Source of the DNA: Phytohabitans rumicis
GTDB taxonomy: Bacteria > Actinomycetota > Actinomycetes > Mycobacteriales > Micromonosporaceae
Assembly: GCF_011764445.1 (NCBI RefSeq)
Contig: NZ_BLPG01000002.1
Coordinates: 620,001-684,000 of the forward strand
Direction: 5' to 3'
Length of the DNA stretch: 64,000 nucleotides
The position numbers were made by a program, and so were the translations under genes. This document shows positions 28,133-42,821 of the stretch, in pieces. How positions within the stretch are numbered: position 1 is the first letter of the stretch; each line of letters begins with the position of its first letter. A model generated the notes under the pieces. That model was not told the origin of the DNA. It saw only the letters and a program-made list of their open reading frames with translations, and made no database searches.

Positions 28133-30571
28133 TCAGCGCACGTACGCGGCGAGCAGGGCCCACGCGTACTCGCTGCGCCACAGCATCGTGCGCTGGGCCC
28201 GGCGCAGCGCCACGTCCAGCCGTACCCCGCCGGCCCGGACCTGGACGACCAGGTCCGCGGCGAGGCCCGCCGTCGGACGGTCCCACACCGTGTCGATCGC
28301 GGCGACCACGCAGCGGCCACCGCCGGTGAGCACCGCCATCACGAAGCTGAGCGGTTCGGCGTCCTCCGGGTTGACCAGCCGGCCGATGTGGCAGGAGGCC
28401 ATCAGCACCGACCCGGGCCAGGGCAGGGCCAGCGCGTGGCCGGCCGACAGCCGCTCCGGCAGCCGCACGTGCTGGCTCAGGTCCAGGCCGCCGCCGTGCG
28501 CGGCGACGTGCACGAACCCCCAGCCGGCCGCCGGATCCGCCAGGGCCTCGGCCAGCCCGCGACCCAATGCGACCGGCGCCGGGTTCGGGTCCGGGGCGAC
28601 CGTGCAGTGGTGCGGCGGGACCCGACCGCCCGGCCGGATCCCCCAGGCGGCGCACTCGTCGTGGATGTCGATGGCCTTCAGGCCGGCATCCGCGTTCTCG
28701 TCGGCGCCGACCAGCCGCACCAGCGCCGGGCCGGTCACCGCCGGCGGGTACGCGTCGGACAGGCAGGTGAGCACCGGGGTCTGGGCCACCACGGCGCGGT
28801 CGATCAGGCGGGTGCCCGCGTCGAGCCGCAGCGCCGGCCACGGCAGCAGGCTCAGCGCCGAGTGGGCGCAGATGAGCAGCTCGGCAGGGTCGTCGTCGGT
28901 GCGCGCCAGCAGCTGGCCGGTCAGCGCGGCGGGCAGCAGCTCGCCGGCGAGCCCGCGCCAGTCCGGCCCGTCGCCGGGTGTGGCGTCCGCGAGCCGGTTC
29001 ACCCACGGCCTCCGGCCGGGGGCGTCGTCGAAGTACGCCTCGAACGCGCCGCCGGGCTCGAAGCGCTCGAACGTCACGTCGCCGTCCGGGGTGATCAGGG
29101 TCCGGAACCAGTTCAGCGCCGCCGACCCTGCCCGGGGCGGGGTGAGCGTGTCGGGCAGGGCGGCGTAGTCCACCGCGTACCGGCGGCCGACCCGCTCCAG
29201 CAGCCGCGGCAGGTCGGCGGGCGTGGGCAGCACGGTGTCGGCGAGCATCGCGGAGAACGCGTTGCGCAGCTCCTGCCGGCGGTCGGCCAGCTCCTCCTCG
29301 GCCACCCGGGTCGACGCGCCGCTGGTACGGGGGTCGGCCAGCTCCTCCTCCGCCGTGATGATCTCGTCCAGCACGGTACGGACGCGGTCGTTGACGATCA
29401 GCGTCCTGCCTGTCCGCATCCGGCTGGCGAAGCCGGTCTGCTTGGCCGACAGGGTGACCCGCAGCCCCAGCTCGGCGGCCGCCCGGCCGGCCAGCCGCGA
29501 GGTGAGCAGGGCGATGTCGCCGTACAGCCGGCGGAAGGCGATCGCCAGCGGCCCCTGGGACCGGGCGATGACGCGCCAGCGGCCCCGGATGCGGTCGGCG
29601 ATGGCCAGCGCCTCGTCGGCGAGGGCGACCACCGCCGCGGCCTGGGGCTCGTCGCGGGCCGCCAGGTACTCGCCGAGGGCAAGCGTGACCGACAGCAGCC
29701 GTACGTCGCGCTGCTCCTCCTGGCTGCGGGTGCGCCGCGGGGGCAGCCCCACGCCGGCCACCAGGTGCTCGCGGGCCTGCACCAGGCGGCCGAGGGCAGC
29801 ATCGGGACCACCCGGGCCACGCTCGCCGTCCGCCCACGCCGCCAGCCCGAGTACGAAGTGGACGCGGTCCCGGGTGTCCAGGTTGGCCACCCGGTCCTGG
29901 GTCCAGTGCAGCTCGTCGGACTCGATCAGCGCCTGCCGCACCTGCGCCGGCTGTCCCTTGCGGATCAGGCAGACGCCCAGCTCGTACTCGTACATCGCCC
30001 GGTAGCGCTCGACGGCGCCGGCGAGGAAGTAGTCGTCCGGCCGGGTCGCCAGGTCCTGGGCGCCGTCCAGGTCGCCGCGCAGCCGGCGGTCCCGGACCGT
30101 CTCGTACGTGGTCATGACGCCGAGGCCCAGCGAGCGGTCCAGCGGGGCGTCCCACCGCCGGTCCGCGGGGTCGACCAGCTCGGCCGCGGCGCGCTCGTAC
30201 AGCCGCTCGGTCTCCTCGTCGGGCACCGGCACGCCGTCGACGGTCGGCGTGATGCCGACCAGCCGGCAGAACCGGACGATCACGGCGGCGTGCCGGTAGG
30301 CGTGGTTGCGAACCGCCCACTCCTGGGAACTCTCGGCGAGGGTCAGTTGGCGCCGCAGGGCGTACCCGAAAAGGTCCTGCTCGCCGCCGATCACGCGCTC
30401 CAGGGCGGCGCGCTGAGCGGCGCCGGCGCCCAGCGGGCGCGCCGGGGCGTCCCGCTCCTGCACGATGCCCACCGCCGCCTCGGCGTCCTGGGCCAGCGAC
30501 AGCAGGTCGTCGCGGGCCAGCACCCGGCGGACCGGGGCGGAGACGGGATCCTCCGGCGCCACCGCGGTCAC
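28133..30571 (-). CDS. Helical-repeat CHAT protease of a MoxR-VWA operon
   Basis: 812-aa protein. Residues 1-~500 are helical and TPR-like. The C-terminal ~300 residues form a CHAT caspase-like domain with His692 (VHVAAHGGG) and Cys727 (LMASCHIGRLVN) in the expected order, and the end motif ALRRAQRTMLWRSEYAWALL. GTG 30571 overlaps the VWA stop by 4 bp, giving a MoxR > VWA > CHAT operon. In ternary MoxR-VWA systems the third protein carries the output, here proteolysis; targets are unknown. Confidence 0.8.
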   Translation of the reverse strand: MTAVAPEDPVSAPVRRVLARDDLLSLAQDAEAAVGIVQERDAPARPLGAGAAQRAALERVIGGEQDLFGYALRRQLTLAESSQEWAVRNHAYRHAAVIVRFCRLVGITPTVDGVPVPDEETERLYERAAAELVDPADRRWDAPLDRSLGLGVMTTYETVRDRRLRGDLDGAQDLATRPDDYFLAGAVERYRAMYEYELGVCLIRKGQPAQVRQALIESDELHWTQDRVANLDTRDRVHFVLGLAAWADGERGPGGPDAALGRLVQAREHLVAGVGLPPRRTRSQEEQRDVRLLSVTLALGEYLAARDEPQAAAVVALADEALAIADRIRGRWRVIARSQGPLAIAFRRLYGDIALLTSRLAGRAAAELGLRVTLSAKQTGFASRMRTGRTLIVNDRVRTVLDEIITAEEELADPRTSGASTRVAEEELADRRQELRNAFSAMLADTVLPTPADLPRLLERVGRRYAVDYAALPDTLTPPRAGSAALNWFRTLITPDGDVTFERFEPGGAFEAYFDDAPGRRPWVNRLADATPGDGPDWRGLAGELLPAALTGQLLARTDDDPAELLICAHSALSLLPWPALRLDAGTRLIDRAVVAQTPVLTCLSDAYPPAVTGPALVRLVGADENADAGLKAIDIHDECAAWGIRPGGRVPPHHCTVAPDPNPAPVALGRGLAEALADPAAGWGFVHVAAHGGGLDLSQHVRLPERLSAGHALALPWPGSVLMASCHIGRLVNPEDAEPLSFVMAVLTGGGRCVVAAIDTVWDRPTAGLAADLVVQVRAGGVRLDVALRRAQRTMLWRSEYAWALLAAYVR

Positions 30572-31659
30572 CGGCGCGAGACCAGCTCGGCCAGCGATCG
30601 CAGCGCGGCGTAGCTGTGCCCCGGCACGACCTCGTGGATGTCGCGGCGGCCGTGCCGCAGCACCGGCGCGGCGTCCACGTGCCCGTGCCGGCCGGCCAGC
30701 GGGTTGACCCACACCAGCCGGTACGCCAGCCGGGACAGGCGGGCCACCCGGCGGATCAGGACGGCCGGCTGGCCGCCGTGGTCCCAGCCGTCCGAGGCGA
30801 TCACGACGACCGCCGACCGGACCGCCCGCCGCCGGTCGCCGGGGCGCAGCAGGTCGGCGAGGCCCGCGCCGAGGCGAGTGCCGCCACCCCGGGGGCGCAA
30901 CGCGAGCACGCCGCCGAGCGCGGCCTCCGGATCGGGGGTACGCAGCGCGGCGGTGATCGGGACGAGCCCGGTGCCGACCGTGAAGACCTCGGTCGTGGCC
31001 GGCCCGGTACGCACCGCCGCGTGGGCGAAGCGCAGCAGCGGGTCGGCGTACGCCGCCACGGACAGGCTGACGTCGATCAGCAGCACCAGGCGGCGGGGGC
31101 GGCGGGTCCGGCGCCGGTACCTCAGGCGGGCCGGCTCGCCGCAGGTGCGCAGCATGGCGCGGGCGGTGCGGCCCAGGTCGACGCGGTGCCGGCCGCCGGG
31201 CACCTGCCGTACCGCCCGGCGGGTCCCGGGCCTGGGCCGCAGGGCCGCGATCCAGGCGTTCGCCTCGGCGCGCTCGGCCGGCGCCAGTTCGGTCAGGTCG
31301 CGTTCGGCCCAGCCGGCGGTGCCTACGGGCGTGGGCTCGTCGGCGGCGGTTGCCGTGCCCGGGACGGGCGCGCCGCCGGCCGGCGGGGGCGCGGCGCCCT
31401 CCCCCGGCACCTGGACGGCGACCAGCGGCACCGGCTCGCCGAACCAGGCGCCGAAGACGGCGTCGAACACCGGCAGGTCGTCGCGCCGGGAGCAGAACGC
31501 GAGCCGGGTGGCCCAGTAGATGCCCGCCCGCCCACGCGGGCCGAGCTGCAGCAGCGCGCGGGCGGCCAGGCCCAGCCGCGCGAGGTCCGCCTTGAGGCCG
31601 GCCGCGCGCAGGGCGTTCGCGAACCCGGTCAGCTCGGCGGCCAGGTCGCCGCCGGTCAT
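30568..31659 (-). CDS. VWA-domain protein of a MoxR ternary system
   Basis: 363 aa. An N-terminal helical region and a Pro/Ala linker (85-115) precede a von Willebrand A domain whose metal site reads LVLLIDVSLS (Asp196, Ser198, Ser200). Later motifs GGGTRLGAGL and VVVIASDGWDHGG fit the CoxE-like group. Such proteins bind a MoxR ATPase partner and switch with metal and ligand binding. 4-bp overlaps with both neighbours show tight coupling. Confidence 0.85.
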   Translation of the reverse strand: MTGGDLAAELTGFANALRAAGLKADLARLGLAARALLQLGPRGRAGIYWATRLAFCSRRDDLPVFDAVFGAWFGEPVPLVAVQVPGEGAAPPPAGGAPVPGTATAADEPTPVGTAGWAERDLTELAPAERAEANAWIAALRPRPGTRRAVRQVPGGRHRVDLGRTARAMLRTCGEPARLRYRRRTRRPRRLVLLIDVSLSVAAYADPLLRFAHAAVRTGPATTEVFTVGTGLVPITAALRTPDPEAALGGVLALRPRGGGTRLGAGLADLLRPGDRRRAVRSAVVVIASDGWDHGGQPAVLIRRVARLSRLAYRLVWVNPLAGRHGHVDAAPVLRHGRRDIHEVVPGHSYAALRSLAELVSRR

Positions 31660-32534
31660 CCCGGCATCAGGCGGGGCAGCAGCGCGCGCACCTTCTCCCA
31701 GTCGTCGCGGTGCTTCACCACGGTGCCGAGGGCCGCCGCGGTGCGCCGCGGATCCAGCACGTCCGCGCCCAGGGCGAGCACGCCCTGGGCCAGGCAGACC
31801 GACTCGGCCACGCCGGGCTGCTTGACCAGCTCGACCCGGCGCAGCTCGACCATCAGGGTGGCGACCTGCCGGGCCAGCGGCTCGCAGCCGTCCGGCAGGT
31901 TACGGCGCACGATGTCGGTCTCCCGGTCCAGCTCCGGGTGGTCGATCCAGTGGTAGACGCACCGGCGTTTGATGGCGTCGTGGACGTCCCGCGTCTGGTT
32001 GGAGGTGAGGACGACCATCGGCGGCGCGGGCGCGCTGATCCGCTCCCCCAGTTCCGGAATGGACACCGCGTAGTCGTCGAGCACCTCGAGCAGGAACGCC
32101 TCGAACTCGTCGTCGGCCCGGTCGATCTCGTCGATGAGCAGTACCACGGCCGGGCTCTCCCGGATCGCCTTCAGGATCGGCCGTTCGATGAGAAACCGTT
32201 CCTCGTACAGCGAGGCGCTGGACGGCTTGCGGCCGCCCGCCTCGGCCGCGCGCAGTTCCAGGATCTGGCCGGGAAAGTTCCAGTCGTAAAGCGCCTGGGA
32301 CGCCTCGATGCCGCCGTAGCACTGTAGGCGGCGAAACGGCACGCCCATCGCGGCGGCGAGGGTACGCGCGAAGACCGTCTTTCCGACGCCGGGCTCGCCC
32401 TCCAGGAATAGCGGACGGCCGAGCTTGCGCGCCACGAAGGCGGCGGTGGCGAGTCCTTCGTCGGCCAGATAGTTCTGCACGTCGAGAGCGGCCGCGAGCT
32501 CCTCGGGGCTGGCGAAGTCCGGCGCGGTCACCAT
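31656..32534 (-). CDS. MoxR-type AAA ATPase
   Basis: 292 aa, full length for MoxR. Walker A GEPGVGKT (46-53), Walker B VVLLIDEIDRAD (Asp135, Glu136), sensor-1 region MVVLTSNQTRDVHDA and the arginine-finger region AIKRRCVYHW are intact. MoxR ATPases remodel or load metals and partners together with VWA proteins. It is the first gene of the minus-strand operon and is divergent from the ubiquitin-like operon 316 bp away. Confidence 0.9.
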   Translation of the reverse strand: MVTAPDFASPEELAAALDVQNYLADEGLATAAFVARKLGRPLFLEGEPGVGKTVFARTLAAAMGVPFRRLQCYGGIEASQALYDWNFPGQILELRAAEAGGRKPSSASLYEERFLIERPILKAIRESPAVVLLIDEIDRADDEFEAFLLEVLDDYAVSIPELGERISAPAPPMVVLTSNQTRDVHDAIKRRCVYHWIDHPELDRETDIVRRNLPDGCEPLARQVATLMVELRRVELVKQPGVAESVCLAQGVLALGADVLDPRRTAAALGTVVKHRDDWEKVRALLPRLMPG

Positions 32535-32849: not shown

Positions 32850-33101
32850 ATGAGCGCTACCGTCACGTTCCGGAACGCGATCACGGACGCCCGCCAGGAG
32901 GTCCAGGTCGCCCCGGGACAGACCGTACGGCAAGCCGTGGAAAACAGCGGCTTCGTCGCCGCGGGCAGCGCGTTCAGCGTCCGCGACAAGAATGGCCAGG
33001 TAGTCGACGACCAGCCCGCGACCACGCACGCGAACACCGTGCTGTCGGTGGGCCTGCCCGGCGACCGGGTTGTCGGCGGCGGCCTCCGCCCACCCGACTG
33101 A
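32850..33101 (+). CDS. Ubiquitin-like beta-grasp protein with processable Gly-Gly tail
   Basis: 83 aa. ATG 32850 follows AGAAAGG at 5 nt. The sequence fits a beta-grasp fold: TVTFRNAITDARQEVQV hairpin, helix TVRQAVENSGF, then AFSVRDKNGQVV and TVLSVGLPG strands. It ends VVGGGLRPPD, so a Gly-Gly (77-78) is followed by five residues that a JAMM protease could remove, as in ubiquitin precursors. First gene of an operon with E1, E2-like, JAMM and CDC48-like proteins, which favours protein conjugation over a ThiS/MoaD sulfur-carrier role. Too short for a multi-ubiquitin. Confidence 0.8.
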   Translation: MSATVTFRNAITDARQEVQVAPGQTVRQAVENSGFVAAGSAFSVRDKNGQVVDDQPATTHANTVLSVGLPGDRVVGGGLRPPD

Positions 33102-33112
33102 CAGCCGGGGCC

Positions 33113-34882
33113 ATGGACAGATACGCACGCCAGCGCGGGCTGGTCGCGCAGGACCTCGTCGCCGACGCGGTCGTCGAGGTGCACGGCACCGGGCCGGCCC
33201 TGCCGTACCTGTTGCAGTGCCTGGCGCTGGTCGGTGCCGGCACCCGCCACGGCGGCATCCGGCTGCACGTCCCGGACCGGGTGGTCGAGGAGGCCGACCT
33301 CGCCCATCAGTTCCTGCTCGACCGCGCCGACGCCGGCCGCCCGCTCGCCGAGGCGCTGATCGACCGCGTCGAGCTGCTCAACCCCACGGTCGACCTCCGT
33401 ACGGCGGACCACGGCTCGGCGCGTACCCGCGGGCGCGGTCTGGGCGTCGCGGTGCCCGGCGCCGCGGAACGGCCCGCGCTGGTCGCCGCCCTCGGCGCCG
33501 ACCCGGCGATCGTCGCCTGGGGCGAGGTGCTGCCCACCGCCGTCTACGTGGGACCGGCGCCGCTGCGTGCCGGCACCGGCGGGCACCCGACGCTGCTGAC
33601 CGCCGCGCTCGCCGCCACCTGCGGCGGCCTGCTCGCCCAGGTGCTGCTCGGCCAGCTCGGTGCGATCATCGACGGCCCCACCGTGCTGTCCCGGTGGTTC
33701 GAGGAGCGGCTCTGGATCGCGTACCCGGACATCGGCCGGCACGCGATGGCGGCCGAGGCCGAAGGGGCGCTGGCCCCGGCGCTGCGCGGGGTCCTGGAAC
33801 GGTTCGACTCGCCCCGGGTGGCCGAGCGCTTCCAGATCCTGCTGGACGGGCGGACGGCCGACCCGCGGGTGACCACGGTCGTCGACCACGACGCCGTCGT
33901 CGTCACCGTGCCCGCCCCGCAGGCGAGCATGACCGGCGCCGCCGTCCGGCCAGGGCTGGCCGACCCGCCGCCGGTACGCCCGCTGCTCTGGTCCCCGGTG
34001 GACGGCCCCACGCTCGACGGCGGCACGGTCACCGGGATGGCCGCCGCGCCCGTGCCACCGCGGACACCGCCGCGCGTCGTCCTCTGCGGCGCCGGCGCGC
34101 TCGGCAGCTGGGCGGCGGCCGTCCTGGCCGCCTCCGGCCTGCCCGGACTGGATCTGTCCATCGTGGACATGGACGACACCGTCGAGAGCCACAACCTCAA
34201 CCGGCAGGTGCTCTTCGACGACGCCGACGTGGGGCTGCCCAAGGCCGCGCAGGCGATGGCACGGCTCGGCAAGATCAACCCGCGGCTGGCGCTGCGCGCG
34301 CTGCCCGTGATGGTCAGCCCGGAGACCATCGAGGACCTGGTCGGCGGCGGCACGCAGTACGAGCTGCTCGCCGACGACCCGCGGTGGCGGGCGTACCGGG
34401 AGCAGGTCGACCAGCTCGCCGGTGCCCTGAAGGACGCCACCGCGATCCTGTCCTGCCCGGACAACCACCAGACCAGGTGGAGCCTCAACGTCATCGCCGA
34501 ACGGCTCGGCATCCCCCTGGTCAACGGCGCGGTGGACGGCTTCGTGGGCCGGGTGCACGTCTGCGACCCGGGCGACCGCGGGCGCTGCCTGGTGTGCTGG
34601 CTCGGCGAGTCGATCGCCGACGAGCCGGAACGGCGTTCCTGCACCGACGTGGTGGGCACCGCCCCGGTCCCGTCGATCGTCACCAGCGCCGCGGTGATCG
34701 GCGCCGCGCAGGCCGCCACGCTCCTCGCCCAGCTCGGCGGGCCCGCGTCCCGGGTACGCCGGTTCCACGCGTTCGACGGACTGGCCGGCACGCTGGACGG
34801 CTACCGGGCCGCGGACCGCGACCCGGACGAATGCCCCGCCCATCTCGTCGGGGCCGGGCCCGACGGCCGGGAGGCGCGCTGA
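33113..34882 (+). CDS. E1-like ThiF-fold activating enzyme, two domains
   Basis: 589 aa. The C-terminal half is an active adenylation domain: VVLCGAGALGSWAAAV (nucleotide loop near 322-337), DMDDTVESHNLNRQVLF with the Arg-Gln of family members near 364, and ILSCPDNHQTR. Cys510 in RRSCTDVVGTAPVPSIV is placed like the E1 thioester Cys; GRCLVCW may bind metal. The N-terminal ~310 residues look like a degenerate partner domain with no nucleotide motif. It would adenylate the Ubl C terminus and pass it to the E2-like proteins. The stop overlaps the next start (TGATG). Confidence 0.85.
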   Translation: MDRYARQRGLVAQDLVADAVVEVHGTGPALPYLLQCLALVGAGTRHGGIRLHVPDRVVEEADLAHQFLLDRADAGRPLAEALIDRVELLNPTVDLRTADHGSARTRGRGLGVAVPGAAERPALVAALGADPAIVAWGEVLPTAVYVGPAPLRAGTGGHPTLLTAALAATCGGLLAQVLLGQLGAIIDGPTVLSRWFEERLWIAYPDIGRHAMAAEAEGALAPALRGVLERFDSPRVAERFQILLDGRTADPRVTTVVDHDAVVVTVPAPQASMTGAAVRPGLADPPPVRPLLWSPVDGPTLDGGTVTGMAAAPVPPRTPPRVVLCGAGALGSWAAAVLAASGLPGLDLSIVDMDDTVESHNLNRQVLFDDADVGLPKAAQAMARLGKINPRLALRALPVMVSPETIEDLVGGGTQYELLADDPRWRAYREQVDQLAGALKDATAILSCPDNHQTRWSLNVIAERLGIPLVNGAVDGFVGRVHVCDPGDRGRCLVCWLGESIADEPERRSCTDVVGTAPVPSIVTSAAVIGAAQAATLLAQLGGPASRVRRFHAFDGLAGTLDGYRAADRDPDECPAHLVGAGPDGREAR

Positions 34883-35310
34883 TGGCCGTCACACCCGCCG
34901 ACTTCCACGCCGTCAAGGGCCACTACCTGAGCCTGGACGCGCTGAGCACCGACCAGGACGGCTGGATCACCGCGATCGCGGTGACCGTGCAGGGCATCGT
35001 CGGCTCGGCGGCGGAGAAGCACCGGCGGGACCGCATGCAGTACCGATTGCTCGCCTCGGTACAGAACCTCCAATCGGGGCTGCCGGTGGTCTGGATCGCC
35101 TCGCCGGACGACAGCCAGATCAAGCACGTCAACATCTTCCGGCCCCGGGAGCGCTGCCCGTTCGTGGGCAAGAAGCTCCCGGACATCTGCTGGGGCACCA
35201 GCTCGGCCGCCTGGAAGGCGGCCAGCCCCGGCGAACGCACCCTGGCCAACCTCCTGGAGGCCGCCCGCCAGGTGCTCGACAACGCCAACCTCAACAGCCG
35301 AGCCCGCTGA
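34882..35310 (+). CDS. E2-like ubiquitin-conjugating protein A
   Basis: 142 aa, the length of a minimal E2 core. The key region IKHVNIFRPRERC then KKLPDICWGTS parallels the E2 pattern HPNI...ICLD, putting the catalytic Cys at 103; a Trp follows it instead of Leu. Preceding strands (GLPVVWIASPDDSQ) and the final helix (ANLLEAARQVLDNAN) also fit. It starts on the last base of the E1 stop. Function as E2 is inferred from motif and neighbours. Confidence 0.75.
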   Translation: MAVTPADFHAVKGHYLSLDALSTDQDGWITAIAVTVQGIVGSAAEKHRRDRMQYRLLASVQNLQSGLPVVWIASPDDSQIKHVNIFRPRERCPFVGKKLPDICWGTSSAAWKAASPGERTLANLLEAARQVLDNANLNSRAR

Positions 35311-35312
35311 CG

Positions 35313-35810
35313 ATGGGGGTGTCCGAAGCGTCCATCGCCCGCCTCCGCCGCGAGTACCCGGACATCGCCGTGCTGGCCCGCGCGAGCGGTCCGGCGCGTC
35401 CACGCGGCGGGTTCCGGGCCTGGCTGCACCGCACGTTCCCGAACTGGAGCGCCCGCCGGACCGGAGGCGGTCCGGTCCTCGCCGTCCGGGTCCGGGTCGA
35501 GGGCATCCGGGGCATGCGCAGCACCGCCCGCTGCCGGTACGACCTCATCGTCGACACCACCAACCTGACCGCGCTCCTGCCGGCGGTCTGGATCGCGGCG
35601 CCACCGGACCACGAGATCAGGCACGTCAACGTCTGGCCCGCCCGGAACAGCTTCTGCCGGTGGTCCGGGCGCAAACTGCCCAGCCTCTGCTGGCACACGT
35701 ACGCCCGCGGCTGGGCCGAGGCACCGCCACACGCCCGCACGCTGGGCGCCGCCCTGGAGTACGCCAAGCAGCTACTCAATACGGAGAACCATGACAGCCC
35801 AGCCCGCTGA
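35313..35810 (+). CDS. E2-like ubiquitin-conjugating protein B
   Basis: 165-aa paralogue of the preceding gene with the same IRHVNVWPARN and KLPSLCWHTYARGW motifs; the putative catalytic Cys is 126. A basic N-terminal extension (RPRGGFRAWLHRTFPNW) and a second Cys (SFCRWSG) 14 residues before the first are specific to this copy. Starts 2 bp after protein A and overlaps the JAMM gene by 20 bp. Two E2-like proteins may serve different targets or form a heterodimer. Confidence 0.7.
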   Translation: MGVSEASIARLRREYPDIAVLARASGPARPRGGFRAWLHRTFPNWSARRTGGGPVLAVRVRVEGIRGMRSTARCRYDLIVDTTNLTALLPAVWIAAPPDHEIRHVNVWPARNSFCRWSGRKLPSLCWHTYARGWAEAPPHARTLGAALEYAKQLLNTENHDSPAR

Positions 35811-36891
35811 GGTCGCCCCTGTCCCCATCGGCCCGCCGTTCTGGCGCCTGGCCTTCGGCACGCTCGGCTGGGTGACGTACCTCGTCACCCTCATCGGGAT
35901 CTACGCGCTCGCCTACCAACGCGACAGCATGCCCGGCCAGATCGCCGCCGGCTGGGCGCTGTCCATCTCGCTCTCGGTGGCGCTGCTGGTGTTGCCGGTC
36001 GCCGCCGGTCACGTGGACGGGCGCGGACTGCGCCTGGGCCGGATCACCCGCCGCGTACCCGAGGTGGTGGCCGTGCTCCTGCTCGCCGCCGGCTCGTTCG
36101 CGGTGATCTGGGTGGCGGTGAGCCTGACGCTCGCCGACGAGGCCGCCGGCGCCTGGACGCTCGCCGCGCCCGCGTCCGCGGCCCCCATCGCCGTACTCAC
36201 CGCGGCGTCCGGGCGGCGACCGCGCAAGCGGGCGGCGCGGCCCGACGGCGCGACACCGCAGCCACCGCCGGACGAGGAGGACGCGCGGCCCCGCGGGCTG
36301 CTCGGCCGGGACTGGGCGGCCGGTTTCGCCGAACGCCAACTCTCGGTCGCCCTGGACGACGGCTTCTGGCAGGCGGCGATGGACGAGCTGGCCCTGGACG
36401 AGAAGGAACGCGGCGGAGTGGCGCTGCTGGTCCGCCGGGACGACGCCCTGCTCGTGCTCGGCGCGGTGTTCCCGCCGCAGGTGTCCGCCACGTCGGTGCG
36501 CTGCGAGTTCTCCACGGTCGACGTCGACCGGATGCGCCGGGCCATGGACACGATCGCCGACGATCTGGGCATCCGGCCCGGCGAGGTCATCGTCACCTGG
36601 GTGCACACCCATCCGGGGCTGAGCGTCTTCCTCTCCGGGACGGACGTCGCCACCGCCGACGATTGGCGGCAGCTCGACCCGGACTTCACGCCGATCGTCA
36701 TCGACCCGCACAAGAGCCACCTGCGGCAACAGATCGCCGTCTTCGACGCCGGCGGCGAGCCGATCCGCCCGATGGGCGTGGTGAAGGGGCTCGTCGACGA
36801 GGCCGCGATGGCACGGCTGGCACGGGCGGTCCGGGGCACGTACCGGGCGGACGGGCTCGCCGCGCCCATGGTCCTCTTCGCGGGCGCGTAG
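35791..36891 (+). CDS. Membrane-anchored JAMM/MPN+ isopeptidase
   Basis: 366 aa. Four predicted transmembrane helices (about 22-42, 52-72, 90-114, 119-139) precede a cytoplasmic linker and a JAMM metalloprotease domain (190-345). The zinc motif reads WVHTHPGLSVFLSGTD: His272, His274, Ser282 and Asp285; the catalytic Glu lies upstream in EKERGGVALL. Such enzymes cleave Ubl from targets or trim Ubl precursors. Membrane placement suggests that conjugation occurs at, or is directed to, membrane proteins. Confidence 0.85.
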   Translation: MTAQPAEVAPVPIGPPFWRLAFGTLGWVTYLVTLIGIYALAYQRDSMPGQIAAGWALSISLSVALLVLPVAAGHVDGRGLRLGRITRRVPEVVAVLLLAAGSFAVIWVAVSLTLADEAAGAWTLAAPASAAPIAVLTAASGRRPRKRAARPDGATPQPPPDEEDARPRGLLGRDWAAGFAERQLSVALDDGFWQAAMDELALDEKERGGVALLVRRDDALLVLGAVFPPQVSATSVRCEFSTVDVDRMRRAMDTIADDLGIRPGEVIVTWVHTHPGLSVFLSGTDVATADDWRQLDPDFTPIVIDPHKSHLRQQIAVFDAGGEPIRPMGVVKGLVDEAAMARLARAVRGTYRADGLAAPMVLFAGA

Positions 36892-36892
36892 G

Positions 36893-37579
36893 GTGCGTGC
36901 GGCGGTGGACGAGACGCGCGGGGACCAGCGCGCCATCGAGGTCCTGTTCGGCCCGGGGCTGGTGCGTTCGCTCCTCGCCTACATCGGCGGTGCCCGCCAG
37001 CACGAACGCGGCGGCGTGTTGCTCGGTCGCCGGGACGAGCGTGCCGTGCGGATCGGCGCCGCGGTCTTCCCGCCGCAGCTGGCCCAGGCCCGCGACCACT
37101 GCGCCTTCGACGTGACCAGCATCGATGTGATCCGCAAGGCGGTGACCGAGCTGCCCGACCGGCGTACCCGGGAGATGGTCGGCGCCATCGTCGGCTGGGT
37201 GCACAGCCATCCGGGCCACGGCCTGTTCCTGTCCCGCACCGACATGGTCACGCTGAGCGCGTGGGCGCAGCTCGACGAGCGGGCGATCGCGGTGGTGGTG
37301 GACCCGTTCCTGCACGGCCCGCCGGAGGAGCGGATCGCCTGGTGGCCCGCCGTAGGTGGGCGGGGGCGTACGGCCGGGACAAGCGGCGGAGAGGACGATG
37401 GCATGACCGTCACCATGGCGTCCGCCGTGGCCGACCAGATCGCGGACGCGCCGCGGGCGTCGTACGAGAGCTGGGACCTCGTCACGTCGTACTCCATCAT
37501 CAGCGTGTTTCCGCGGCCGGCGGCGCCGGGTGGCGGCGGCCACCGCGCCACGCCGAAGCGGCGGGAGCCCCGGTGGTAG
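36893..37579 (+). CDS. Soluble JAMM/MPN+ isopeptidase
   Basis: 228 aa, GTG start 2 bp after the previous stop. Complete JAMM motif: Glu in HERGGVLLGRRDE, then VHSHPGHGLFLSRTD with His104, His106, Ser114 and Asp117. No membrane segment; residues after 160 are low-complexity and may be a recognition tail. With the membrane form it gives two proteases for one Ubl, possibly one for maturation and one for release. Overlaps the AAA gene by 7 bp. Confidence 0.85.
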   Translation: MRAAVDETRGDQRAIEVLFGPGLVRSLLAYIGGARQHERGGVLLGRRDERAVRIGAAVFPPQLAQARDHCAFDVTSIDVIRKAVTELPDRRTREMVGAIVGWVHSHPGHGLFLSRTDMVTLSAWAQLDERAIAVVVDPFLHGPPEERIAWWPAVGGRGRTAGTSGGEDDGMTVTMASAVADQIADAPRASYESWDLVTSYSIISVFPRPAAPGGGGHRATPKRREPRW

Positions 37580-39678
37580 CCGCGACGGTGCAGGGCGCGG
37601 CCGCCGGCGACGTGCACCACGGGCACTGCTTCAGCAACGTGAACGGCCTGCGGGCCGGCGACCCGGTCAGCATCTCGACCGGCACCGCCACGATCTACAC
37701 CCGGCTGGCCTGGGATTTCACCAACCGGTTCGGCGCGGCCGACCTGGTCGCCCTGGACGGGTGGCAGTGCGCGGCCCTGGGCGTGCAGGACGGCGCCCGC
37801 GTCGACGTGACCGGGCTGGACCCGGCCGACCTGCCCGTCGCCGACTTCGCCGAAGTGCAGCTCACCCGCTGGTCCGGGCCGCCGGTGGAGCACCGGGCCG
37901 GCCTGCCGGACTTCCTGCGGACCGGCAAGTACCTCCTGCACCCCGGACTGCGGTTCAGCTACACCCCGCTCGGCGGCACCGGCACGGGCGAGTTCCGGGT
38001 CACCAGGATCACCGCCGCCGGCGAGAACGCGCCGGTCGCGCTGATCGGCGACGGCCTGTCGCTGGCCGTACGGCGGCTCGCCGGCGTGGGCGACTGGCCA
38101 CCGTCCTATGAGGACATTGGCGGCCTGGACGCGGTGATCGCCCTGCTGCGCCGGGAGATCGAGCTGCCGCTGCGCCGCCCGCAGGAGCTGCGCGAGATCG
38201 GCGTGACCGCGCCCTCCGGGGTGCTCCTGCACGGCCCGTCGGGCACCGGCAAGACGCTGCTGGCCCGCGCCGTCGCCTACCACAGCGGGGTACGCTCCAC
38301 CGTCCTGCGCGGCGCGGAGATCGCCAGCTACTCGCTGGCGCAGGCCGAGCAGGTGCTCCGGGCCGCGCTCGCCCCCGACGGCGAAGCGGACGCGCCCCAC
38401 CTGGTCATCATCGACGACCTGGATTTCCTCGCACCGAGCCGGACCCTGCCGCTCGCCTCCACGTCGCTGCTCGGGCTGGTCCAGAGCATGCTGGAGGGCT
38501 CGGGCCGGCCGCTCGTGATCGCCACGACCAGCCGCCGGGACGAGATCGACCCGGCCATCCGCCGGCTCGGCCGGATCGGCCACGAGATCCCGGTGCCCGC
38601 GCCGAGCGAGGGCGACCGCGCCGCGATCCTCGCCGTGCACACCCGCGGGCTGCCGCTGGCCGACGAGGCGGACGACCGCGACGCGCTCACCGCCGACCTG
38701 GCCCGCCGTACGGCCGGGTTCGTCGGCGCGGACCTCGCCGCGCTCTGCCAAGAGGCGGGCCGCCTGGCGCTGCGCCGCGCGTTCCCCGTCGAGACCCTGG
38801 AGTCGCAGTCGCCGCAGCCCCAGGCGCCGCTGGTGATCCGGGCCGAGGACTGGACGGAGGCGCTGCGCCTGGTCACCCCGTCGGCCGTCGGCGGCGTCGT
38901 CTCGGACGTACCGCCCACCAGCTTCGCCGACGTCGCCGGCCTCGACGCGACCGTCACCACGTTGCGGGAGCGCTTGGTCCTGCCGCTGTCGCGCCCGCAC
39001 GTCTTCGCCGAGGCCGGGCTACGGATCGAGCGCGGCGTGCTCTTCTACGGCCCGCCCGGCACCGGCAAGACGCTGCTCGCCCGCGCGGTCGCCCACGAGT
39101 GCGGCGCGCGGTTCATCTCGGTACGCGGCCCGGAACTGCTCACCAAGTGGTTCGGCGAGTCCGAGCAGGCGGTCCGGGACCTGTTCGAGCGGGCCCGCTC
39201 GGTGGCCCCGTGCGTCATCTTCTTCGACGAGATCGAGGCGATCGCGCGCAGCCGCTCCCGCAACTCGCACGACTCCGGCGCCGCCGACCGGGTCGTCAAC
39301 CAGCTCCTGGCCGAGATCGACGGCCTCGTCGACCTGGGCCAGGTCTCGATCATCGGCGCGACGAACAACCCCGCCAGCATCGACCCGGCGCTGCTGCGAC
39401 CCGGCCGCCTCGGCCTGCACATCGAGGTCCCCCTCCCCGACGCCGGCGGCCGCCGCGACCTGTTCGCGATCTACCTGAACGCGGACGAGCTGGCCCCGCG
39501 GTACGCCGAGTACGCCGCGATGACCCCGGGCCGCTCGGGCGCGGACATCGCCATGATCGCCCGGGAGGCGAAGCTCAACGCCCTGCGCCGCGAGCGGTTC
39601 GAGCGGGCGGTGCCGGTGACACACGCCGACGTCGTGGCCGGCATCAACGCGCCGGCGCCGCTCACCGCGACGGACTAG
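37573..39678 (+). CDS. CDC48/p97-like double AAA ATPase
   Basis: 701 aa. An N-domain like that of CDC48 (about 1-170, VNGLRAGDPVSISTGTATIY) is followed by two AAA modules. D1 has Walker A GPSGTGKT but Walker B LVIIDDLDF with Asp where Glu is usual, and lacks the aromatic pore loop. D2 is canonical: GPPGTGKT, pore loop LTKWFGESE, Walker B CVIFFDEIEA, sensor GATNNP, arginine fingers RPGRLG. It probably unfolds or extracts Ubl-tagged proteins, as p97 does for ubiquitin. Last gene of the operon; its end overlaps the convergent gene by 17 bp. Confidence 0.85.
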   Translation: MVAATVQGAAAGDVHHGHCFSNVNGLRAGDPVSISTGTATIYTRLAWDFTNRFGAADLVALDGWQCAALGVQDGARVDVTGLDPADLPVADFAEVQLTRWSGPPVEHRAGLPDFLRTGKYLLHPGLRFSYTPLGGTGTGEFRVTRITAAGENAPVALIGDGLSLAVRRLAGVGDWPPSYEDIGGLDAVIALLRREIELPLRRPQELREIGVTAPSGVLLHGPSGTGKTLLARAVAYHSGVRSTVLRGAEIASYSLAQAEQVLRAALAPDGEADAPHLVIIDDLDFLAPSRTLPLASTSLLGLVQSMLEGSGRPLVIATTSRRDEIDPAIRRLGRIGHEIPVPAPSEGDRAAILAVHTRGLPLADEADDRDALTADLARRTAGFVGADLAALCQEAGRLALRRAFPVETLESQSPQPQAPLVIRAEDWTEALRLVTPSAVGGVVSDVPPTSFADVAGLDATVTTLRERLVLPLSRPHVFAEAGLRIERGVLFYGPPGTGKTLLARAVAHECGARFISVRGPELLTKWFGESEQAVRDLFERARSVAPCVIFFDEIEAIARSRSRNSHDSGAADRVVNQLLAEIDGLVDLGQVSIIGATNNPASIDPALLRPGRLGLHIEVPLPDAGGRRDLFAIYLNADELAPRYAEYAAMTPGRSGADIAMIAREAKLNALRRERFERAVPVTHADVVAGINAPAPLTATD

Positions 39679-40009
39679 CCGCGCTGCCGTTCTCGACGAC
39701 CACGGGCAGCAGCTGGGTGGACGGCGGGTCGGCGGCCGGGATCCGGTCGAGCAGCCGCCGGATCAGCTCGGCCTGCTCGCGCTGGAGCTGGATGAGCCGG
39801 GCCAGCCACGAGCTGAAGAAGATCAGCGCGCCGCTGACGGTCAGCCCGAGCCCGAAGAGCCCGCCGGAGACCAGGTACGGGACCTGCTCGAACACGTACC
39901 CGGTGTGGGCCGTGCCGTACCAGCCGATGCCGATCACGGCGAGGCCGAGCGGCATGAGGAACCCGCCGGCGATCGTGAGGACCTGTTGCAGACGCTGCTC
40001 GGATCGCAT
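39662..40009 (-). CDS. Small membrane protein, last gene of the ABC transporter operon
   Basis: 115 aa with two transmembrane helices (about 10-32, 45-68), a short amphipathic or coiled segment (QLQREQAELIRRLLDRIP) and an acidic-neutral tail. It starts 3 bp after the secreted-protein gene, so it belongs to that operon and not to the convergent Ubl operon whose end it overlaps. Function unknown. Confidence 0.7.
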   Translation of the reverse strand: MRSEQRLQQVLTIAGGFLMPLGLAVIGIGWYGTAHTGYVFEQVPYLVSGGLFGLGLTVSGALIFFSSWLARLIQLQREQAELIRRLLDRIPAADPPSTQLLPVVVENGSAASPSR

Positions 40010-40012
40010 GGC

Positions 40013-41386
40013 TCAGCTCTCCTTGGAAGGGTCTCGCAGGTCGGGGACGCCGGCGGGCACGCCGAGGTCGCACCCGCCGGCGCCGAACATGAGGGCCACA
40101 TATCTACGCAGCCCGTACGAGACCGCGGCGGCCGCGGCGAAGCCGAGGACGAAGGCGTACCAGGGGACGCCCGGGAAGACCGGCCACTGGTGGCCCGCGA
40201 CCGGCGTGACGGCCTCGCCGGCCGCGTCCCCGGACGGGGTGTCGCCGCCGGTGCCGCCGACGCCGGAGCCGCCGGCCGAGTCGCCCGTGCCACCGGCCGG
40301 ACCGGCGGCGGGCGGCGCGGCCGGCGGCGGCGCGGCGGCGGCGGCCGCGGGGGTGGCCGTCGCCTGGCTGGTCGCGGTGCCCAGCACGAAGACGAACCGG
40401 GGCGCGAGGTTGAGCCATGGGGTCAGCTGGGTGCGCACGTCGGCCGGGAGCAGCGCGAGCAGCGGCTCCAGCAGCGTGGTCAGGTTGAGCCGGCGCAGCA
40501 GCGCGCCGGTGTCGAGGGTGACGGTCAGGCCGCGCCCGGTCGCCTTGGCGCCCGCGCCGTCCACCTTCTTGTCCACTGTGGGCACGTTGACGGCCAGGCC
40601 CAGGGTCGCCAGCTGCTTGGTGAGGTCGGCCGGCAGCGTCGGCAGCTTGGTCACACCGGTCGGGGCGGCCACGCCGTCCTGGTTGACCGCCACCTTCTGG
40701 CCGGCCAGGGTCAGCGACTGCCACACCACGGTGCCGGTGGTGGTGCCGCGGGCGCCGTCGCTGGCCGCCTCGGTGTCCACCCGCAACCCGTCCACCTTGA
40801 CCAGCCCGCCCAGCAGCGAGACGGAGCCCGCGGTGGCGTACGAGACCGCGGTGGCCCGGTCGCCGGTGACGGTGGTCCTGCTCTGCGACGAGAAGCCCTC
40901 CATGGCGACCAGCACCGGCGGGATCGGCAGGCCGGGCACGGCGACGGCGGGGCTGGCGTGCTTGGCCCCGTGCGCCTCCGCCTGGACCGACGTGGCGTCC
41001 GCGTGCGAGGTCATCGCCGCACCCGGGGCGATCTCCTGCTTGGCGTCCTTGGGCCCGGACGGGTGTGCGGCGTCGACCTTGACCGGGTAGGTGGCGTCCG
41101 GGCTCTGCAGCAGCTCCGGCAGGCCGTACCCGACCGCGTCGCCGGGCCACATCAGGCTGGACACGGCCCGGCCGGTCGGGCCGCTGGACAGCTTCGCCCG
41201 GGAGTACGACAGGTTCAGCTCCAGCTGCGGCTCGGCCGGGATCGGGAGGGTCGGCTCGAAGATCTGCACGGCGATCGGCGCCGCGTCCGCGGTGAGGGTG
41301 AACCCACCGAGATCAGCGGCCTTGGCCGGTGCCGGCACGGCGAGCAGGGCGGCGCCGACGGAGATGGTCACAAAGAGGCTCTTCAT
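40013..41386 (-). CDS. Secreted, C-terminally anchored protein of the ABC transporter operon
   Basis: 457 aa. Signal peptide MKSLFVTISVGAALLAVPAP with cleavage near AKA-A. A beta-rich extracellular region (30-340) precedes a Gly/Ala/Pro linker, a transmembrane helix (YAFVLGFAAAAAVSYGLRRY) and a short cytoplasmic end, i.e. a surface-anchored protein. ATG 41386 overlaps livF by 4 bp. It may help bind a hydrophobic substrate and pass it to the transporter; this is inferred only from operon position. Confidence 0.7.
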   Translation of the reverse strand: MKSLFVTISVGAALLAVPAPAKAADLGGFTLTADAAPIAVQIFEPTLPIPAEPQLELNLSYSRAKLSSGPTGRAVSSLMWPGDAVGYGLPELLQSPDATYPVKVDAAHPSGPKDAKQEIAPGAAMTSHADATSVQAEAHGAKHASPAVAVPGLPIPPVLVAMEGFSSQSRTTVTGDRATAVSYATAGSVSLLGGLVKVDGLRVDTEAASDGARGTTTGTVVWQSLTLAGQKVAVNQDGVAAPTGVTKLPTLPADLTKQLATLGLAVNVPTVDKKVDGAGAKATGRGLTVTLDTGALLRRLNLTTLLEPLLALLPADVRTQLTPWLNLAPRFVFVLGTATSQATATPAAAAAAPPPAAPPAAGPAGGTGDSAGGSGVGGTGGDTPSGDAAGEAVTPVAGHQWPVFPGVPWYAFVLGFAAAAAVSYGLRRYVALMFGAGGCDLGVPAGVPDLRDPSKES

Positions 41387-42087
41387 ACGGCGCTTCCCAG
41401 GTAGAGGTTGGCCAGTTCGTCGGCGATGTCGTCGGGCCCGCCGGCGGCGACGACCCGGCCGTGGACCAGCACGGCGGCGCGGTCGGCGACCGCGAGCGCG
41501 GCGTCGGCGAACTGCTCGACCACGAGCACGCTCACCCCGTCCGCGGCCAGCCCGGCGACCACCTCGTACAGCTCGCGCACGACCAGCGGGGCCAGGCCCA
41601 TGGACAGCTCGTCGATCAGCAGCACGGCCGGGTTGGTGGCGAGCGCCCGGGCCATCGCCAGCATCTGCTGCTCGCCGCCGGACAGCGAGCCGGCGAGTTG
41701 GCCGGCGCGCTCGGCCAGCCGGGGAAACCGGTCGAACGCGGTCGCGTACACGTGCGCCGCGCTCACCCCGGCGTAGGAGGCGAGGCGCAGGTTCTCCCGC
41801 ACGGTGAGGTTGGGGAAGACCGAGCGGCCCTCCGGGATGGTGCACAGCCCGGCCCGGGCCAGCGCGTCGGGTGCGGCGCCGTTCACGTGCGCCCCGCCCA
41901 CGTGTACGTGGCCGGCGGTGGCCCGCACCTGTCCACTGGCGACCTTCAGCAGGGTGGTCTTGCCCGCGCCGTTCGGGCCGAGCAGCGCCATCACCGCGCC
42001 CCGGGGCAGCGTGAGGTCGACGCCGTGCAGCACCTCGATCCGGCCGTACCCGGCCGTGACGCCGACCAGCTCCAGGATGGGCGTCAT
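41383..42087 (-). CDS. livF: Branched-chain amino acid type ABC transporter ATP-binding protein LivF
   Basis: 234 aa, normal for LivF. Walker A GPNGAGKT (37-44), signature SLSGGEQQMLAMARAL, Walker B AVLLIDELSMGLAP with the LivF-type ELSMGL, and switch His region. One of two ATPases powering the LivHM-type permease. 4-bp overlaps on both sides. Confidence 0.9.
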   Translation of the reverse strand: MTPILELVGVTAGYGRIEVLHGVDLTLPRGAVMALLGPNGAGKTTLLKVASGQVRATAGHVHVGGAHVNGAAPDALARAGLCTIPEGRSVFPNLTVRENLRLASYAGVSAAHVYATAFDRFPRLAERAGQLAGSLSGGEQQMLAMARALATNPAVLLIDELSMGLAPLVVRELYEVVAGLAADGVSVLVVEQFADAALAVADRAAVLVHGRVVAAGGPDDIADELANLYLGSAV

Positions 42088-42821
42088 TCGGCCCCGCCCA
42101 GGTACGCCCGCTGCACGTCCGTGTCGGCGCGGACCTCCGCGGGGGTGCCGGACGCGATGACCGCGCCGAAGTTGAGCACGGTGACCCGGTCGCAGACCCG
42201 CATGATGAGGTCCATGTCGTGCTCGACGATGAGCACCGCCTTCCCCTCCCCGGCCAGCTCCCGCAGCAGCTCGCCGAACGCCTCGGTCTCGGCCGTGCTC
42301 AACCCGGACGACGGCTCGTCCAGCAGCAGCAGGCGCGGGTCGAGGGCGAGCGCGCGGGCCAGCTCCAGCAGCCGGGCGATGCCGGTGGGCACGGTGTCGG
42401 CCGGCCGGTGCGCGTACCGGTCCAGGCCCACCCGCGCGATCAGCCGCTCGGCCACCTGCGCCGGCGACTGCTGGTGCCGCCGGCGGCGCCGCCCGTGCCG
42501 GTGGTGGATCTCCGCCGCCACGAGCACGTTCTCCCGGACCGACAGCGACCCGAACGCCTCCAGCCGCTGGAACGTGCGGGCGATGCCGCGCCGGGCCCGC
42601 TCGTGCGTGGCGCGCCGGGTGATGTCCTCGCCGGCGAACCGGACCGCGCCGCGGGTCGGCCGCTGCAGCCCGGTGATCACGTTGAACAGCGTGGTCTTGC
42701 CGGCGCCGTTGGGCCCGATCAGCCCGGTCACCTGGCCGGCCGCGGCGTCCACCGTGGCGGCGCGTACCGCGGTCACGCCGCCGAACCGCACGGTCACGTC
42801 GGCCGCCTCCAGCAGCGTCAT
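42084..42821 (-). CDS. livG: Branched-chain amino acid type ABC transporter ATP-binding protein LivG
   Basis: 245 aa. Walker A GPNGAGKT (36-43), Walker B LLLLDEPSSGLS and the LivG-type GEDITRRATHERARRGIART and VEHDMDLIM are present. The signature is divergent (VPTGIARLLELARAL instead of the usual YGxQRxLEIARAL), which may be a group feature. An insert HHRHGRRRRRHQQS is strongly basic. Start at 42821 overlaps the permease stop by 4 bp. Confidence 0.9.
   Translation of the reverse strand: MTLLEAADVTVRFGGVTAVRAATVDAAAGQVTGLIGPNGAGKTTLFNVITGLQRPTRGAVRFAGEDITRRATHERARRGIARTFQRLEAFGSLSVRENVLVAAEIHHRHGRRRRRHQQSPAQVAERLIARVGLDRYAHRPADTVPTGIARLLELARALALDPRLLLLDEPSSGLSTAETEAFGELLRELAGEGKAVLIVEHDMDLIMRVCDRVTVLNFGAVIASGTPAEVRADTDVQRAYLGGAE

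Follow-up and report, generated by a model that had tools for sequence, protein, structure and literature searches.

In a 64,000-nucleotide stretch of the genome of the soil actinomycete Phytohabitans rumicis (contig NZ_BLPG01000002.1, positions 620,001 to 684,000; hereafter, the window), we find a compact seven-gene cassette that probably encodes a pathway for attaching a ubiquitin-like protein (Ubl) to targets and removing it again, joined to a p97-type unfoldase of its own. We hold this reading because so many features of the cassette are conserved. What the analysis shows is the gene set, its order and conservation, the conserved catalytic residues, and the predicted folds; from these, the reactions, substrates, membrane extraction, proteasome link, horizontal spread, and biological role are inferred. 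Ubl conjugation is already known in Bacteria from the Bil, CBASS, and Bub systems (here and below, published work is described from those parts of each source that were available). In this cassette, a p97-type unfoldase, whose eukaryotic counterpart works with ubiquitin, is linked genetically to the modifier, its enzymes, and its proteases, and this coupling is the surprising element. If the prediction is true, tagging and ATP-driven extraction are coupled in Bacteria in a reconstitutable seven-gene form, and the origin of the ubiquitin-p97 partnership thus becomes directly testable.

A conserved seven-gene cassette

All seven genes lie on the plus strand at 32850-39678, overlapping or abutting, as a first-pass annotation of this DNA had described and as gene models, distances, and family matches confirm. 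From the Ubl to the CDC48-like gene, the intergenic distances are +11, −1, +2, −20, +1, and −7 base pairs (bp). The same annotation had read the genes as a Ubl pathway that lacks a recognizable E3 and has a pair of E2-like proteins, a pair of JAMM proteases, and a p97-like ATPase. This reading is supported by conservation, profiles, and folds, most weakly for the E2s. Curated family models recognize the E1, both JAMM proteins, and the ATPase, but the Ubl only weakly and the E2s not at all. For the Ubl and the E2s, the evidence is structural and comparative, with a weak Pfam match for the former and none for the latter. The expected catalytic residues of the E1, E2s, JAMM proteins, and the D2 module of the ATPase are unchanged across all aligned rows. 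A promoter and terminator scan returned nothing beyond chance level.

To find relatives, the two E2 paralogues were aligned and the alignment was searched against a collection of 84,980 species, which possibly did not include the window's own genome. The pattern matched 192 stretches, six of which were confirmed, corresponding to six loci in five genomes. The cassette is complete in Streptomyces sp. BK340 (L011), Actinoplanes italicus (L014), and Actinoplanes sp. KI2 (L015), cut by a contig end in Streptomyces sp. SID5910 (L012), and cut between two contigs of one genome in Allorhizocola rhizosphaerae (L013 and L016, which share 47 bp where the end of the former meets the start of the latter). 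The order Ubl-E1-E2a-E2b-JAB1-JAB2-CDC48 recurs in all five of these other actinomycete genomes, as far as the contigs reach, and the 20-bp overlap of E2b and JAB1 is identical in all five rows with both genes (window, L011, L012, L014, and L015). Thus, the cassette is more than a chance arrangement.

The modifier

The first gene (32850..33101) encodes the Ubl modifier, a protein of 83 amino acids whose pro-form ends in LSVGLPGDRVVGG|GLRPPD. Its Pfam match, to Ub-RnfH, lies under the cut-off (0.0085). The AlphaFold model (predicted local distance difference test, pLDDT, 78.8) is a beta-grasp, and Foldseek returns beta-grasp proteins at a probability of about 1.00, although just two chains fall below an E value of 0.001; the BRAF RBD (3.5e-4) is followed further down by an ISG15 complex (1.7e-3), the Bil-type bacterial Ubl of 8tyx (3.5e-3), and ubiquitins. 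Matches of the Ubl profile to BLIP-II (E 0.003-0.004) were rejected, being sums of repeat matches with i-Evalues each >100.

Ubl copies are 76-89 amino acids long, with a single beta-grasp domain. In all six, a di-glycine stands at a fixed place, at the end of a V-V-G-G core (V-R-G-G in KI2), so that each copy has the exposed or exposable di-glycine C-terminus of ubiquitin-type conjugation. The tail behind it varies in sequence and length in five of the six copies, and the A. italicus copy stops exactly at the di-glycine. An invariant di-glycine with a variable tail suggests a precursor with a removable tail and is typical of a modifier that undergoes trimming and conjugation. Exactly one lysine occurs in each of the six Ubl copies, always in the same alignment column (Lys47 in the window, 32988-32990), and by eye its hairpin may be the counterpart of the ubiquitin Lys48 hairpin. 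The single lysine is a hint at most, because the neighborhood is generally lysine-poor.

The E1

The E1 (33113..34882) matches Pfam ThiF at 1.9e-43. Its two halves can be aligned to each other by hhalign (score 43.0, E 2.1e-5, probability 76.6%), a score reached by none of 100 column shuffles (maximum 23.9). The first, IAD-like half therefore reads as a degenerate copy of the second, with the protein predicted to consist of tandem degenerate and active adenylation halves. The second half carries the nucleotide site, the predicted catalytic residue Cys510 (in SCTD), and a CxxC plus CxxH pair, all invariant in 6/6 copies. From the motif, we take C492xxC495/C574xxH577 to be a probable zinc site, as in ThiF/MoeB relatives. 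This inactive-plus-active layout is that of eukaryotic E1s and of BilD (PMC11354881).

Among curated models, the active half is closest to ThiF/MoeB, and in the PDB profile search, ThiF ranks first with UBA7 behind. This affinity fits a role in sulfur-carrier or small-molecule biosynthesis, in which the Ubl would be thiocarboxylated like ThiS or MoaD and the JAMM protease would merely trim it; operons of ThiS/MoaD-like proteins with an E1 and a JAB are indeed known (PMC1779556). We consider such a role highly improbable, given the two E2-like proteins with an HxN...C site, the tandem degenerate and active E1, the two JAMM proteases, and the p97-like ATPase. Nor do the seven cassette genes, or the three left and two right neighbors scanned, include a rhodanese, a cysteine synthase, or any gene of sulfur metabolism.

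Two E2-like proteins

E2a (34882..35310) has a probable UBC fold and an H82-x-N84-x7-C92 site, and its paralogue E2b (35313..35810) has H104-x-N106...C115; a second invariant cysteine follows in each (Cys103 and Cys126, respectively). The best of five AlphaFold models of E2a (pLDDT 87.3) shows a helix, a strand meander, the active-site region, and two helices. The first six Foldseek rows for E2a are the yeast Vps23 UEV, the TSG101 UEV, Atg3, two Cap2 complexes, and TSG101 (E 0.033-0.17), row 8 holds one chain from a bacterial E1-E2-Ubl complex (8tz0), and row 10 is a human E2; rows 7 and 9 are unrelated. The Cap2 matches presumably fall on its E2 domain, and the chain in row 8 is presumably the E2.

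Profile comparison agrees with the fold, although both matches are weak. Aligned with three canonical E2s, the E2 profile places HVN...C on HPN...C and matches N..SPAR, together with its last helix, to the PNPDDP motif (E 0.0016, score 26.2). None of 200 column shuffles reaches this score (mean 11.9, maximum 23.0). From His82 to Cys92 is ten residues, as in UBE2D2, and the HPN-to-Cys spacing is canonical. Around the site, H82, N84, C92, and C103 are invariant (E2a numbering), and the Cys92 and Cys103 columns are both invariant across ten aligned E2a/E2b sequences. The first-pass annotation had placed the nucleophile at Cys103/Cys126, probably the wrong pair: both pairs are invariant, but it is Cys92/Cys115 that sits in the HxN...C motif, and Cys92 in E2a and Cys115 in E2b are the probable nucleophiles. 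The one E2 match below 0.01 in any library is that of SenA in NCBIfam to E2b (0.0018, 17.8 bits, cut-off 420). An EgtB/SenA identity, with further PDB matches at E 0.24 and 0.84, was rejected as chance, because the predicted E2 fold is UBC-like.

The paralogues are 43% identical over residues 27-142, and both are present in every genome that was found to have the cassette. Their clades separate with a support of 1.00, placing the duplication before the spread of the cassette. In Allorhizocola (one draft genome), the E2a reading frame stays open through E2b up to the end of the contig (L013:9995-10579). The constant pairing of two old paralogues, and their single frame in Allorhizocola, would also suit a variant of the pathway in which E2b does no conjugation itself and instead, as a UEV-like partner, holds the acceptor in place for E2a, in the style of Ubc13-Mms2. 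E2b has one to three extra residues between Asn and Cys, which also favors this variant, but its His, Asn, and both cysteines are kept in all five aligned copies. We regard this variant as possible, though not the likelier role for E2b.

Two JAMM proteases

JAB1 (35791..36891) combines N-terminal membrane helices with a JAMM domain (E206, H272, H274, S282, and D285). JAB2 (36893..37579; GTG start) is a JAMM protease without a predicted membrane part (E38, H104, H106, S114, and D117). JAB2 matches Pfam Prok-JAB above the cut-off (1.6e-7), and JAB1 falls slightly under that of Pfam JAB (1.4e-4, 22.0 bits, cut-off 22.5). The E...HxH(x7)SxxD pattern is intact in 6/6 rows of JAB1 and in 4/4 rows of JAB2, an alignment that leaves out L016 and the cut L012 copy. 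In the PDB profile search, both match RPN11 best (5.3e-13 for JAB2, 4.5e-7 for JAB1); an N11-like protein, which we take to be archaeal, is also among their best structure matches. JAB1 had initially been described as a four-helix membrane protein. At the hydropathy threshold used, the window copy has two strong segments and its orthologues three to five, partly overlapping.

With one JAMM protease anchored in the membrane, the Ubl could conceivably be attached to a lipid of the membrane or to a single, constant protein there, as in Atg8-like or Cap2-like regulatory tagging, with JAB1 deconjugating it and the ATPase recycling the complex; extraction of proteins in general would then not be the purpose. 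The presence of Atg3 and Cap2 near the top of the E2a fold matches, and the lack of an E3, fit this idea. Yet the fold ranks are weak, with UEVs on top, and an HxN...C site belongs to ordinary E2s that act on lysines. Furthermore, p97 relatives usually have many substrates. Overall, we find a single lipid or protein target unlikely.

The ATPase

The last gene (37573..39678; GTG start) encodes a CDC48/p97-like ATPase with N, D1, and D2 domains. The PDB profile search yields 47 distinct sequences at E ≤1e-150, of p97/VCP/Cdc48. The N-domain profile matches double-psi barrels (3.9e-4 to 0.008), one of them labeled Cdc48; the others are designed variants, presumably derived from Cdc48. The protein thus has the double-psi-barrel N-domain and two AAA modules that characterize Cdc48/p97. 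Against the CDC48 model TIGR01243, it scores 473 bits (1.3e-141), short of the model's cut-off of 803 bits, which the Cpa-like protein of its own genome does not reach either; the score of the cassette ATPase against FtsH is 317 bits (cut-off 600). In a four-row alignment, the Walker B motif of D1 is degenerate (DD), while D2 is canonical (FFDEIE, with pore loop KWFGESE).

This domain plan, N-domain plus degenerate D1 plus intact D2, is shared with Cpa, a Cdc48-like actinobacterial protein for which binding to the 20S proteasome has been reported (PMC6017811). In that source, cpa is placed with psd/pssA rather than with Ubl genes, and the cassette ATPase is a gene separate from the Cpa-like one. 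The latter lies on the main contig of the own genome (G000 C1, L056:2281-4452, minus strand), and its product is 40% identical to residues 176-685 of the cassette ATPase. Elsewhere on the same contig are two adjoining proteasome-family genes (L023 and L024). These are plausibly the alpha and beta genes of a 20S proteasome, an identity that we infer from the pair, because the family model also matches HslV-type proteins in control genomes.

Proposed pathway

From these parts, we propose the following pathway. A JAMM protease would trim the Ubl precursor and expose its di-glycine end. The E1 would adenylate the Ubl and load it onto Cys510, after which E2a and E2b, as a pair, would carry the Ubl thioester (probably on Cys92/Cys115) to target lysines, without a recognizable E3. 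The ATPase would then pull or unfold Ubl-tagged targets, with the N-domain recognizing them and the D2 ring providing most of the power, and the JAMM proteases would remove and recycle the Ubl. Some tagged targets may be at the membrane, where JAB1 sits; the membrane-anchored JAMM protease and the p97-like ATPase together make extraction of targets from membranes plausible.

Several observations weigh against this pathway. The E2 assignment is its weakest link. No family library scanned (Pfam, NCBIfam, PADLOC, and the PDB profile search) gave a meaningful E2 match, and the hhalign probability of the E2 profile against canonical E2s is 15.9%. Predicted structures, which the first-pass annotation had named as a check, returned the beta-grasp for the Ubl and a UBC-like fold for E2a, the latter weakly (best E 0.033, TM-score ≤0.49). 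E values in the named Foldseek rows run from 0.033 to 0.73, with none below 0.001 and a best TM-score of 0.49, and the five AlphaFold models of E2a are unequal in confidence (pLDDT 69.8-81.7 for the other four). In addition, no E3 is recognizable among the cassette proteins, and the substrate and adduct side of the pathway is purely predicted. The degenerate Walker B motif of D1 and the membrane part of JAB1 make the extraction step tentative. Selection against self-modification is not clearly visible in lysine content: pooled, it is lower inside the cassette than outside at all six loci (1.01 versus 1.67% in the window), but individually the seven window proteins rank at 0.25-0.94 among 103 genes outside cassettes. 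Finally, the alignments are shallow, because only five other genomes with the cassette were found.

A bolder extension would make the cassette a bacterial counterpart of the ubiquitin-p97-proteasome axis, in which the E2 pair builds Ubl chains on Lys47, the p97-like ATPase extracts targets from membranes or complexes, the RPN11-like JAMM proteases recycle the modifier, and the unfolded targets go to the presumed 20S proteasome of the host, alongside Pup and independently of it. We offer this as a speculative and rather doubtful scenario.

Comparison with known systems

The first-pass view that the layout departs from standard Bil and type II CBASS operons holds, in that several of their defining features are missing. 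Bil systems comprise BilA (Ubl), BilB (E2), BilC (JAB), and BilD (E1). The cassette shares with them a Ubl end that needs exposure, inactive and active E1 halves, an E2, and a JAMM protease (PMC11354881), and a bacterial E1-E2-Ubl complex (8tz0) and a Ubl-deubiquitinase complex (8tyx) are among its fold matches. In contrast to BilA, which has two Ubl domains, the cassette Ubl has one. The Bil E2 has a CEHH motif (PMC11354881), whereas the cassette E2s have HxN...C. By eye in the alignment, the cassette E1 also lacks the ~80-residue helical insert around the cysteine, and the cassette adds a second E2, a second JAMM protease (one of the pair being membrane-anchored), and a p97-like ATPase. Profiles do not single out Bil either. 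BilD is absent among the best 25 of 26 model matches of the window E1; it matches two of three relatives' E1s at ~17 bits, in the nucleotide site only and behind CBASS models, and the third not at all. The BilC model matches JAB2 (E 1.9e-4), again behind CBASS JAB models.

Type II CBASS likewise has E1-, E2-, and JAMM-type parts (Cap2/Cap3). Among PADLOC models, those for CBASS E1-E2 come nearest to the E1, and Cap2 entries are among the E2a fold matches. Unlike Cap2, which is a fusion, the cassette E1 and E2 are separate, and a Ubl gene is present. No CD-NTase/nucleotidyltransferase or other named CBASS part was found among the 10 proteins scanned.

Other bacterial sets of Ubl, E1, E2-like protein, and JAB include types 6d and 6e (Iyer 2006, PMC1779556) and the Bub operons, which we liken to the cassette via secondary mentions. 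Type 6d differs in its helical protein and in an E2 that lacks the usual histidine, and type 6e in having a poly-Ubl, an inactive E2-like domain, and a JAB-E1 fusion; neither description, in the part of PMC1779556 available, lists Cdc48 or two E2s. The FtsH-ternary tri-ligase systems (Kaur 2020, PMC7159879), found in MoxR-vWA systems, also combine Ubl, E1, E2, and JAB with an AAA+ protein. There, however, the Ubl is fused to the E2 and bears EAD1, the set includes a RING E3, and FtsH serves as the second ATPase (PMC7159879); in the cassette, Ubl and E2 are encoded separately, and none of the seven proteins has a RING or EAD match. An operon with Ubl, E1, two E2s, two JAMM proteases, and Cdc48 was not found in the available parts of the open-licence literature compared (PMC1779556, PMC7159879, PMC11354881, PMC13373217, PMC12687455, PMC3482391, PMC1949818, and PMC8195603), and an earlier mention elsewhere is possible.

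Distribution and possible role

The cassette is rare, with a patchy distribution and differing neighborhoods. A search with E2a found it in 3 of 200 genomes of the family, the window's own among them. The E2 profile was positive in one of six genomes of the genus (the own genome) and in two of 394 of the class (the own genome plus one marginal match of 46 residues and 21.7 bits). At E 1e-30, the E1 matched 1/397 genomes in the order and 1/396 in the phylum, each time the own genome. These counts are lower bounds, because they come from genome samples in which few candidates were scored per genome (three for the E1, nine for the E2 class search). E2a had no match at 1e-5 among 72,556 plasmid or 50,697 phage records. 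Plasmid carriage was rejected: the E1 matched 12 plasmid records, all partially (≤30% of the query) and with ThiF/MoeB-like proteins. Phage carriage was also rejected, since viral contigs yielded neither an E2 nor a Ubl relative, and their single E1 match was partial (54 residues).

The cassette has probably spread horizontally. In a same-genus genome without an E2 match (G057), the block to the right of the cassette (39662-46073) is kept, at 74-94% identity per match. An empty-site test there found no clean empty site, the block being split over two contigs (L057 and L059), and no window gene matched in the 18 kilobases (kb) beyond the conserved block.

The cassette is probably a stress or conflict system. 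A narrower version of this role would make it purely an anti-phage or conflict effector, whose sole task is to tag phage or toxin proteins with the Ubl; this overlaps with the proposed pathway and differs from it in role. The rarity, patchiness, and differing neighborhoods of the cassette would suit such an effector, as would the company it keeps: the window copy faces a MoxR-VWA-CHAT set, and three relatives carry the cassette right behind a kinase-FHA-AAA-radical SAM module. On the other hand, no PADLOC model matches the E2s or the scanned Ubl copies; the E1, JAB2, and the ATPase match generic PADLOC E1-E2, JAB, and AAA models; and nucleotidyltransferases and named CBASS parts are missing from the proteins scanned, as noted above. 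A purely defensive role is thus conceivable, but we would put it at somewhat less than an even chance.

Neighboring genes

To the left of the cassette, and divergent from it, are MoxR-like AAA, VWA_CoxE, and CHAT-protease genes (28133-32534, minus strand). These were rejected as part of the system, as the set was not found in the examined flanks of other copies (~8 kb upstream in L011, L013, L014, and L015; 1.4 kb in L012). The one MoxR match in the relatives' loci covers 25 residues in L016, inside the CDC48 gene. VWA relatives occur in 6/6 genomes of the genus, the own genome included, with best non-own matches of 44-47% identity.

In L013, L014, and L015, a six-gene module lies directly upstream of the cassette on the same strand (L013:47-7970, L014:130-8083, and L015:17-8057), in the order Ser/Thr kinase, unknown, Clp-type AAA, FHA, unknown, and radical SAM. 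It overlaps the cassette by 4 bp in L014 and L015 and is separated from it by 77 bp in L013. Of 200 genomes of the family, eight contain a module protein, six of them without the cassette if the sample is the same as in the E2a search. In four of these six (20 kb each, L035-L038), the module is whole or partial and no cassette gene was recognized. The module, upstream in three genomes but also occurring without the cassette, was therefore rejected as a core part. Its AAA protein matches the PADLOC candidate model PDC-M37B (2.3e-26). At the other end of the cassette, the ATPase gene and the next gene in the window overlap tail to tail by 17 bp.

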